Of a stretch of 27,678 bases of DNA, positions 5,017 through 7,038 are shown one piece after another. Within the stretch, counting starts at the first letter, position 1. Every line of letters starts with the position of its first letter. Both the position numbers and the translations under genes were made by a program. Source of the DNA: a virus. The notes below the pieces were generated by a model that was not told the origin of the DNA, did not search any database, and saw nothing but the letters and a program-made list of their open reading frames with translations. The DNA lies in IMG/VR virus record IMGVR_UViG_3300025120_000418, positions 1 to 27,678 of that record. One strand, 5' to 3'.

Positions 5017-5200
5017 AAAATTAATTTGCAGACTGTATCTGCACACAGACGAAGATAATAATAATAATGTAGTGGTGATGTATAGTAATTTTGATGATGA
5101 AGCTGAGTCAAAACTATTTATTGAAAATTTTAAGAACGACCATGATGAATATCAAGAAATTGATGAGGGAAATTTAGGGGAGAAGTGGACAATCCATTAG
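4931..5200 (+). CDS. Small hypothetical protein with acidic C-terminal half
   Basis: An 89-codon frame from ATG 4931, eight bases after AGGAAG. The N-terminal third is very basic (MSLKKPKKNLHKTKLSKSSL) and overlaps the preceding gene in another frame. The rest is distinct: KKLICRLYLHTDEDNNNNVV, then an acidic half (NFDDEAESKLF, YQEIDEGNLGEKW). A shorter version starting at the TTG at 5010, inside the stop of the preceding gene (TTGAATAA), would remove most of the overlap and also fits coupling. No family is recognised. It is the last rightward early gene, convergent with the ParB-like gene. Confidence 0.55.
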   Translation: MSLKKPKKNLHKTKLSKSSLKLSEEILNKKLICRLYLHTDEDNNNNVVVMYSNFDDEAESKLFIENFKNDHDEYQEIDEGNLGEKWTIH

Positions 5201-5227
5201 GCAACCCAAGAATATCGGATTGCCTAA
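5197..5227. terminator. Stem-loop between convergent genes
   Basis: TTAGGCAA (5197-5204) and TTGCCTAA (5220-5227) pair perfectly, and inner CC/GG pairs can extend the stem past one mismatch. It lies exactly between the rightward gene ending at 5200 and the leftward gene ending at 5246. No T run follows on either strand, so it is a weak intrinsic terminator at best, or a 3'-end stabiliser. Confidence 0.45.
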
Positions 5228-5245
5228 AATTATAAGGAGAGAAAA

Positions 5246-6001
5246 CTACTCGAAAAAGTATTTTGCTTTTTTTCTGTTCCTGTAATTATGAACAGTAATA
5301 ATACTCTTGATGTTTTCTTCTATAGTATAAGCATTTTTCCATTGGTGAGGAAACTTTTTATAATTTCCTATGAAGCTATAGATATCAAAACTATCTTCTC
5401 TTTTTAGTTTTAATAAGCCTCTTAGAAAACTTTGCCTATTCCATACGTCTTTATCTATTGATGAGTTTTTCAATAGCATTATTAGACCTGATGCTTGTTC
5501 TTCAACATTATCAGGTATAACAAGATTACCATTTTTAAAATCAAAAGTGCTGGTTCTTGCCTCAGTATTACCAATAGACAAATACATACAAATTTCGATT
5601 ACTGTAGAATGAGAAACACCTAAAGAATATATTGATAAATATTTTTTATAGTGTTCTGCGTTTTTAGAGTAAATTGTGTAAGCTTCTGCAATATCTAATG
5701 CGTTCCAGTTATTTTGAACTGAATTAATATCTCTTACTAAGCTTAACAATTTATGTTTTTCGACATTGAATACCGAATAACGAACTGGTACTTCTAAAGT
5801 TTTACAACATTCCAGTCTATGTTGTCCGTCAATGACCTGTTTATATTGGTCAACGACTATTGGATTGATTAGACCATACGTTTTAATACTGTCTAACATT
5901 CTGTTTACTTTGTTAGATCTTATGGTTCTGTTCCCTTTGAAGAAAATAAATTCTTCGTAGTTTTCAGACGTATAGATCTGATCTTGTAAATAATGAGTCA
6001 T
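5246..6001 (-). CDS. ParB/Srx-fold (ParB-like nuclease domain) protein
   Basis: A 251-residue protein. Residues 22-77 match the ParB N-terminal domain: NRTIRSNKVNRMLDSIKTYG, then LINPIVVDQYKQVIDGQHRL with the hallmark DGQHR at 58-62. The rest (80-240) is helical, with a basic C-terminus (HNYRNRKKAKYFFE). ParB-domain proteins bind or cleave DNA or hydrolyse CTP. In phages, stand-alone versions act as partition proteins, nucleases, transcription regulators or DNA-modification accessories; which applies here cannot be told. There is no ParA in the window, so classic partition is not supported. An AGAGGAG site precedes the ATG, but it sits in the loop of a hairpin (see 6002-6054). It is the last gene of the leftward small-gene operon. 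Confidence 0.8.
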   Translation of the reverse strand: MTHYLQDQIYTSENYEEFIFFKGNRTIRSNKVNRMLDSIKTYGLINPIVVDQYKQVIDGQHRLECCKTLEVPVRYSVFNVEKHKLLSLVRDINSVQNNWNALDIAEAYTIYSKNAEHYKKYLSIYSLGVSHSTVIEICMYLSIGNTEARTSTFDFKNGNLVIPDNVEEQASGLIMLLKNSSIDKDVWNRQSFLRGLLKLKREDSFDIYSFIGNYKKFPHQWKNAYTIEENIKSIITVHNYRNRKKAKYFFE

Positions 6002-6054
6002 AGAGACTCCTCTCTAGTATCTAAATGATACTCAACCACCTGTAAAGGTAGTTG
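6002..6054 (-). promoter_or_regulatory. Three back-to-back stem-loops leading into the ParB-like gene
   Basis: On the minus strand, three hairpins follow each other without a single spare base. CAACTACCT/AGGTGGTTG (6054-6033) has nine pairs including one G-U as RNA, loop TTAC. AGTATC/GATACT (6032-6016) has six pairs, loop ATTTA. AGAGA/TCTCT (6015-6002) has five pairs, and its loop is the ribosome site GGAG. The ATG starts at the next base. They fill nearly the whole gap after the stop at 6063. A translational switch or protein-binding leader is inferred. Confidence 0.6.
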
Positions 6055-6062
6055 ACTAGCAT

Positions 6063-6272
6063 TTAATGATGATCTGTTTCTGTAAAAGTTACAGTAACTT
6101 CTATGTCACCATAAAGTCTATGTGCGTCCTGAAACTCCTCTAGTATTCTGTCAAGACTTTTAAACATTAGACATTGATCTACTTCGATCTTTTGTTGTCG
6201 AGGTAAATGCTTATCTTTTTTTCGATTGTATTCTGTGTCGTTAATAATGATAGTATATTTGTCGATATGCAT
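6063..6272 (-). CDS. Small hypothetical protein (69 aa)
   Basis: A 69-residue protein from ATG 6272-6270, with GGAG six bases upstream. A longer reading from a TTG at 6302 is rejected because it would start inside an 8-bp hairpin (6286-6305) and bypass this ribosome site. The sequence begins MHIDKYTIIINDTEYNRKKD and ends in beta-like EVTVTFTETDHH; it is mixed alpha/beta, polar and without recognisable motifs. The start codon itself lies in the loop of a small palindrome (GATAT...ATATC). It belongs to the leftward small-gene operon, after the terminator-like structure at 6304-6374. Function unknown. Confidence 0.6.
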   Translation of the reverse strand: MHIDKYTIIINDTEYNRKKDKHLPRQQKIEVDQCLMFKSLDRILEEFQDAHRLYGDIEVTVTFTETDHH

Positions 6273-6285
6273 GATATCTCCGTTC

Positions 6286-6305
6286 TTCTTGGTATAAACC
6301 AAGAA
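6286..6305 (-). promoter_or_regulatory. Perfect 8-bp stem-loop in a gene leader
   Basis: On the minus strand, TTCTTGGT and ACCAAGAA form a perfect 8-bp stem with a four-base TTAT loop. It starts within the T run that ends the terminator-like structure at 6304-6374 and stops 13 bases before the start codon at 6272. It is the only sequence besides the ribosome site in this short leader. Confidence 0.5.
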
Positions 6306-6374
6306 AAAAACCCTTTTTAAGAGTCATACAGACACTTTTAAGATGTTTGATGAACTCTAAGTCAGGGCTTTTTT
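6304..6374 (-). terminator. Long imperfect hairpin with T7 tail (leftward)
   Basis: On the minus strand an A6 run and CCCT (6367-6364) pair with AGGG (6314-6311) and the T7 run (6310-6304). Inside, TTAGAG pairs with CTCTTAA (one bulge), TCAT with ATGA, and ACA with TGT, giving one long interrupted stem ending in T7. It lies between two genes of the leftward operon. It may end part of the transcripts, or act as an attenuator for the 69-residue protein and ParB-like gene. Confidence 0.45.
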
Positions 6375-6380
6375 ATTAGT

Positions 6381-6581
6381 TTATTGATCTAATCTTTGAC
6401 TTGCTCTTTTATAGATTTCTATTTGAGATTTTTGTAAGTCAATTCCGTATTTATGTTGGTATTCGTCAACAATAAAATCTTTTGCTTCATCTTCGTCAGC
6501 AAAATGTATCTGATCTATTTCAGGATCAGAATATTTTATTTTGATACCATTAATGATTGCACAATATAAAGTCATTACCAA
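6381..6581 (-). CDS. Small hypothetical protein (66 aa)
   Basis: A 66-residue protein. The TTG at 6581-6579 lies six bases after AAAGGAG and is favoured; an ATG two codons on (6575) would have 12-base spacing. The sequence (MVMTLYCAIINGIKIKYSDP, then DEDEAKDFIVDEYQHKYGID) is acidic and looks like a compact alpha/beta domain. No family is recognised. Unlike its upstream neighbours it is not joined by a stop-start overlap; a 124-base leader with three stem-loops precedes it. Confidence 0.6.
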   Translation of the reverse strand: MVMTLYCAIINGIKIKYSDPEIDQIHFADEDEAKDFIVDEYQHKYGIDLQKSQIEIYKRASQRLDQ

Positions 6582-6601
6582 ATATTTCTCCTTTGTGATG
6601 T

Positions 6602-6698
6602 AGGTAGTTTTGACAGAATTTAACTGCTTGGCACTACCTGAGCCATGCCTGAATATTTAATTAATAAATATTCAAGAAAGCCCATGAACAGGCTTTCT
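6602..6698 (-). promoter_or_regulatory. Structured leader with three perfect stem-loops
   Basis: On the minus strand three perfect inverted repeats occur in order. AGAAAGCC/GGCTTTCT (6698-6675, loop 8) is followed with no spacer by TGAATATTT/AAATATTCA (6674-6650, loop 7). After a ten-base linker comes AGGTAGT/ACTACCT (6639-6602), enclosing a 24-base loop that contains a small CAG/CTG stem. They fill the gap between the stop at 6706 and the ribosome site at 6592-6588. Neither a strong terminator T run nor a known riboswitch is recognised. Confidence 0.55.
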
Positions 6699-6705
6699 AA
6701 AATAT

Positions 6706-7038
6706 TTAAGGGTGTGTTTCTTCAAGGCGGTTTGATAAATCATCAATCCAAGGAAGATTAGTAGTCCAGTCAGATAGATCCTCGCAACTATGCTCGTCAT
6801 ACTGCTTGATGTATCTGCACCAACCTTTTTCATTAAAAACGATATATGCTTCATTGTAAATATCTTCGACAAAATCAACAGTTTCTTTTATCTTGTCGGT
6901 ATATTTCCAATTATCGTAATCGTAATAATCATCTTCATTGGGGAATAAATTTTCTCCACCTTGTTGAACTAACCATTTAAGGTTTCTCTTTTTAGCTTCC
7001 TGTAAAAGAAGTCTAAGTACGTTTGCTTTTCTTGCCAT
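6706..7038 (-). CDS. Hypothetical protein (110 aa), aromatic and acidic
   Basis: A 110-residue protein starting MARKANVLRLLLQEAKKRNL and rich in Asp, Tyr and Trp (for example EDDYYDYDNWKY, LSDWTTNLPWID). The Asp/Tyr-rich stretch and low pI give it a nucleic-acid-mimic look, but no known anti-defence or DNA-mimic family is recognised. Its ATG overlaps the stop of the upstream gene as TAATG, supporting the start and translational coupling. It is followed by the stem-loop leader at 6602-6698. Function unknown. Confidence 0.65.
   Translation of the reverse strand: MARKANVLRLLLQEAKKRNLKWLVQQGGENLFPNEDDYYDYDNWKYTDKIKETVDFVEDIYNEAYIVFNEKGWCRYIKQYDEHSCEDLSDWTTNLPWIDDLSNRLEETHP

Follow-up and report, generated by a model that had tools for sequence, protein, structure and literature searches.

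The antitermination RNA put of phage HK022 is formed by two adjacent short stem-loops in the phage RNA. Phage accessory regions swap small genes fast, and how the inserts are expressed while their neighbors are spared is seldom clear. In T4-type phages, promoter-early stem-loops (PeSLs) are intergenic cassettes that are dense among small accessory genes and are associated with gene shuffling (PMC4503421, citing Arbiol 2010 and Comeau 2014). RiboJ-type synthetic insulators carry a hairpin immediately before the ribosome site; it is suggested to expose the site and to standardize the 5′ end (PMC6206723).

The locus described here is the leader of a parB-like gene in a viral record of 27,678 nt (IMGVR_UViG_3300025120_000418), the whole of which is referred to as the window. 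By its portal, terminase, and capsid matches, the window belongs to a podovirus-like group of uncultured phages. The nearest phage by portal protein is Pelagibacter phage HTVC106P, a distant relation (43% identity) that points to a marine origin of the phage. The parB gene is the last gene of an accessory operon on the minus strand, and its leader is a member of a family of intercistronic elements in the accessory small-gene operons of this phage group. The elements combine a first hairpin (T) with a second hairpin (H2). With a probability of roughly 55%, they constitute a mobile structured intercistronic RNA linker that runs from the upstream stop codon to the next ribosome site, capping one gene cassette and providing the following one with a standard structured leader. 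The anatomy of the element is well supported, and from it and the comparisons below we infer the mechanism. The coordinates in the window are collected in Table 1.

Like PeSLs, the elements are stem-loops in the intergenic gaps of a plastic accessory region with gene shuffling. Compared to PeSLs as described in PMC4503421, the elements differ by their two hairpins, the second of which covaries, by a start that is fixed at the upstream stop codon, by the ending of most copies at a ribosome site, and by their podovirus-like phage group. In addition, a sigma-70-like early promoter is not above chance here, although the promoter type of the host may be unusual. A test for the promoter by which PeSLs are defined was negative, so the elements are not filed as PeSLs; in gene shuffling they appear to work like them. 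H2 adjoins the ribosome site as the RiboJ hairpin does, and a parallel in function is hypothetical. RiboJ differs by its self-cleaving ribozyme, whereas the elements match no Rfam family: no covariance model reached the gathering score in the window or in the relatives L085, L092, L094, and L096, and a permissive search of 5990-6720 returned only sub-threshold matches outside the element. T resembles an intrinsic (Rho-independent) terminator in its placement as a hairpin behind a stop codon and, in relatives, between convergent operons. It differs in that most T hairpins are followed by three to five U in the next 8 nt and that the position of the U-tract is taken by the 5′ arm of the second hairpin.

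Table 1. Features of the parB cassette and the neighboring elements in the window (positions of the window; E1, E2, and E3 are the element copies, E1 being the parB leader).
Feature	Position	Strand	Details
Hairpin closing the parB cassette	5195..5229	-	convergent operon end; second hairpin absent
ParB-N-like protein, 251 aa	5246..6001	-	PHROG 12305, E 2e-19; Pfam ParB_N below cut-off
Ribosome-binding region	6002..6015	-	GGAG 6010-6007; foldable as hairpin 3, AGAGA-GGAG-TCTCT, 5 pairs, -4.0 kcal/mol
Hairpin 2 (H2)	6016..6032	-	AGTATC-ATTTA-GATACT, 6 pairs, loop ATTTA; flush behind T
Hairpin 1 (T)	6033..6054	-	CAACTACCT-TTAC-AGGTGGTTG, 9 pairs, one U.G
Strand U	6055..6065	-	stop codon plus about 8 nt
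69-aa protein gene	6063..6272	-	MHIDKYTIIIND...; function unassigned; upstream of parB leader
E3, analogous element	6286..6383	-	stop TAA 6383-6381; large T-tailed terminator-like hairpin
E3, second hairpin	6305-6286	-	TTCTTGG-TTTATA-CCAAGAA; before ribosome site of 69-aa gene
E2, second copy in the window	6642..6708	-	R1 match, E 0.0013; model trained on other elements
E2, parts		-	stop TAA 6708-6706; T 6698-6675; H2 6674-6650, zero spacer

The parB leader is tiled from 6054 to 6002 (minus strand) by hairpins of nine, six, and five pairs with zero spacers, followed by the ATG at 6001, exactly as reported in the first-pass annotation. The minimum free energy of this stretch is -21.2 kcal/mol (z -4.3), and an equal stability was reached in 0 of 200 shuffles. 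The same annotation regarded such tiling as improbable by chance, which holds in so far as tiles of at least 9, 6, and 5 pairs are rare and would be rarer still at an ATG; with 3 occurrences in 40 shuffles (one strand, any position) the tile does not decide the matter by itself. In shuffled sequence, 6% of the ATGs have a hairpin of five or more pairs flush on their 5′ side. By itself, H2 of the window reaches just -4.4 kcal/mol. When a wider context is folded, an extended hairpin 1 is preferred, in which strand U pairs with the 5′ arm and loop of H2 to give a 19-pair stem (6066-6021), and hairpin 3 has a competitor in GAGTC-TCTAT-GACTC. This GAGTC/GACTC stem is able to enclose the parB start codon in the window (6009-5995, minus strand) and in the leader of the relative L001 (-5.5 and -5.9 kcal/mol); being identical in both, it cannot be tested by covariation. 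A 13-aa ORF that spans hairpins 1 and 2 (6062-6021) was discarded, as it is not retained in L001 or in L006-type leaders. Chance arguments by themselves do not settle the reality of the tile; homology decides.

Relatives of the parB leader were obtained from searches of viral contigs (L001, L006, L022, L029, L030, L035, L036, and L042, plus L034). The ParB protein of L001 is 70% identical to that of the window. Hairpin 1 is kept with differing stems (CAACTACC/GGTGGTTG, CAACTGCTCA/TGAGCGGTTG, TTAAAAGCTC/GGGCTTTTAA, and TCAAAAGCC/GGCTTTTGA), and its loop length varies as well while the structure is kept. Four of its pairs are double-changed among the parB leaders, and the covariation score is 0.286 compared to 0.128 in shuffled and at most 0.096 in slid alignments. 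Hairpin 2 of the relatives reads either AGTATC/GATACT or AGTATG(T)/(G)CATACT. These compensatory substitutions and the retained end-to-end packing identify both hairpins as genuine RNA structures. The preference of the first-pass annotation for a role as RNA over a DNA palindrome is thereby borne out, as the stems of both hairpins change on both sides and stay paired, and as the stem and loop lengths of H2 vary in a way that would not be tolerable for a fixed DNA operator. Such an operator was rejected because the dyad changes its sequence and its spacing. Relatives' leaders, which had been named as a possible source of refutation, keep hairpins 1 and 2 with compensatory changes and do not keep hairpin 3. 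The ribosome site held in the loop of the latter had been part of the original description; the hairpin is absent from all examined leaders that differ in sequence and is not clearly beyond chance. In L001 the corresponding AGAAAGGAGTCAATC does not fold, the leaders of L006, L022, L029, L030, L034, L035, L036, and L042 lack the hairpin, and only the near-identical contig L002 has it in common with the window.

The leader was also initially taken to belong to the ParB-like gene, whose product might bind it. Its position directly before parB in the window and close relatives and the perfect dyad of hairpin 2 would suit autoregulation by the ParB-like protein, bound either to the RNA of its leader or to the AGTATC dyad as a DNA operator. 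This explanation is largely refuted. In L034 the leader precedes the 69-aa gene instead, which fills the slot of parB between the hairpins, and the record of L034 has no parB match; L080 and L096 carry an element though the 31-kb record G013 is without a parB match. ParB homologues at 57% identity or less have no leader and place the ribosome site directly or nearly directly after the upstream stop codon. The dyad, moreover, varies in sequence and spacing (N7 versus N9), and the window holds no further copies of it as a fixed site. An exact search for GAGTATCATTTAGATAC gave only chance matches beyond the parB leaders, the parB region had no blastn match among cultured phages, and the patterns applied to bacterial and archaeal genomes recovered no ParB relative.

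A scan of the relatives for long hairpins revealed further elements that have other sequences and the same order of parts: stop codon, T, H2 directly behind it, ribosome site, and start codon. All 30 elements listed start at the upstream stop codon or at most 3 nt from it, and nearly all copies end at the next ribosome site. In the window, the TAA stop of the 69-aa gene (6065-6063, minus strand) is the first codon of the parB-leader element. The type-B elements form an alignment of 11 distinct members, in which 99.5% of the cells are paired and 7 of 17 pairs show a double change. T and H2 together yield a covariation score of 0.293 (0.141, sd 0.021, when shuffled; at most 0.111 when slid). The H2 arms of an element fit each other better than arms swapped between elements, with the native pairing being reached in 0 of 20000 permutations. 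A type-B pattern added five more contigs.

A covariance search, which had been suggested for the leader, was run over 526 kb with a model (R1) that was built from type B only. R1 matches the parB leaders of eight relatives, E2 of the window, E2 of L001, and the copy in L002 (E 0.001-0.02). The parB leader of the window itself is unmatched at E ≤ 1 and is assigned to the family because its homologues match. E3 is not detected by R1, and among the distant parB loci there is just one weak match (L064, E 0.61). R1 has no match in HTVC106P, and such an architecture is not present in the annotated gaps of this phage. E2 of the window is followed by a longer leader and then by the gene 6381-6581, with no ribosome site directly at its end. 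Hairpins at 7664-7610 were initially read as another element and were rejected, as they are located within a 34-aa ORF.

The presence of H2 follows that of a downstream gene: it is found in 14 of 14 variants with a following gene and in 0 of 8 copies without one (P of the gene-less copies 0.19-0.97). The elements in this comparison were chosen by a long hairpin or by the type-B pattern, with E3, which was picked by eye, being excluded; one copy added later, L102, stems from a pattern that requires part of H2. H2 has 7 to 11 pairs in most gene-headed variants. In the parB leaders it has six, and an individual copy there does not reach significance (P about 0.08). L078-L082 have hairpin 1 between convergent operons, and both parB and a second hairpin are missing behind it. 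In the relatives that bear parB, the gene sits between hairpin 1 and another hairpin at the convergent end.

T alone between convergent operons and a parB cassette that is flanked by hairpins on both sides would fit a strict PeSL-type promoter–terminator cassette, in which T ends the upstream transcription and a hidden promoter starts the next message. Modular shuffling, position, and a TATAAT in the H2 loop of some type-B copies fit as well. We nevertheless consider such a cassette unlikely. The best sigma-70 match per element scores 8.35 of 12 compared to 8.16 in shuffled sequence, a value reached by 37 of 200 shuffles with a consensus that may not be that of the host, and the parB leader has no promoter-like match. 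The U-tracts are weak in most T hairpins: the 8 nt after T contain three U in the window copy, five in the parB leaders of the relatives, three to five in type B, and seven in E3. Since a good U-tract is missing in most cases, T can be called a putative terminator only.

The alternative pairing of strand U would allow a translation-coupled switch, in which strand U contends with the 3′ arm of H2 for one middle strand (M). A ribosome that terminates upstream would cover strand U and let H2 form; otherwise a long U-T-M stem would arise. In length, strand U is close to the stretch that would be shielded by a ribosome at termination. Each of the 17 variants allows both folds, which lie 0-6 kcal/mol apart, and masking strand U leads to T plus H2 in every one of them. 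The U-M helix, however, is conserved less strictly (87.5% of cells, a double change in one pair) and shows no covariation within type B. In most variants the ribosome site is outside the competing helices, so a clear on/off output is missing. The bistable switch was at first favored and was demoted due to the weak U-M covariation; we now consider it unlikely.

Two short hairpins with almost no spacer, a conserved spacing, and many sequence variants also recall the tandem stem-loops of HK022 put, and with them a cis-acting RNA that would bind a protein or modify RNA polymerase. The elements differ from put in position, copy number, and variable sequence, with copies at internal gene junctions and not only at operon heads. 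The variable stems and loops leave little constant sequence for recognition, and H2 depends on the following gene. We consider a put-like function very unlikely.

The structural linker is favored by the strong covariation of H2, the modest gain in accessibility of the ribosome site, the lack of promoter enrichment, and the poor U-tracts. In such a linker, T would mark or protect the 3′ end of the upstream message through partial termination, processing, or stability. H2 would supply the next gene with a standard structured 5′ leader and would separate its ribosome site from whichever gene recombined upstream. Genes could thereby be swapped with little effect on their neighbors, with recombination between element copies probably driving the exchange. 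Upon masking of strand U, the near-zero spacing between T and H2 is kept in 17 of 17 variants. In 10 of 11 cases the ribosome site is predicted to be more accessible behind the native element than behind a shuffled one; the gain is small (mean about 0.58 versus 0.49, 12 contexts for each), and folding by itself gives only a rough approximation.

The genes on both sides of the elements are exchanged. E1 precedes parB or the 69-aa gene, and its upstream genes differ too. E2 precedes MVMTLY or MQYYNG genes, the L001 copy standing before a MQYYNGKK... gene, and E3 precedes MHIDKY or MFTIEL genes, with the same block before a different gene in L001. Type-B elements are followed by at least six different downstream genes, and L002 has, relative to the window, a 67-aa gene that was inserted together with an element. 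Unrelated small proteins upstream of type-B elements have the C-terminus PxPFFN* in common (L085, L086, L090, L092, L098, L102, L105, and L106), which indicates that exchanged segments extend into the upstream gene by a few codons. As the joint recurs with many different flanking genes, it looks like a reusable connector for gene swapping.

More tentatively, and with a rather low probability, the elements may represent a new RNA family that acts as a universal gene connector, in which a stop-anchored hairpin is combined with a second hairpin able to re-pair the middle strand, possibly sensing upstream termination, and which is shuffled together with the cassettes. If this is true, a gene could be inserted into an operon via the connector without a promoter of its own. 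A conserved RNA joint from stop codon to ribosome site that travels with the cassettes would be a concrete and testable answer to how inserts are expressed. The joint could also serve as a signature for cassette boundaries in metagenomic phages and would be a natural parallel to the synthetic insulators.

Further features were observed beside the elements. The C-terminus of one protein, MDNNPFQYHHD..., differs between L030 and L036. The 34-aa ORF at 7686-7582 (minus strand) is unlisted and encodes a membrane-like peptide, MLLQGLDGADIILLTVFFYVSYKLYKRLKDEGDK; short genes that resemble it (MFLQGL..., MPFYGL...) follow type-B elements in the relatives. The accessory operon opens with a gene whose leader (8010-7945, minus strand) could form a three-way junction, noted by eye only, in which AACTGT/ACAGTT surrounds the hairpins GTAAGAT/ATCTTAC and GATCTT/AAGATC. 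At 493-448 (minus strand), a mismatch-free hairpin of 20 pairs (G-U allowed) lies within an apparent short membrane-like ORF that stands just before the gene 90-419.
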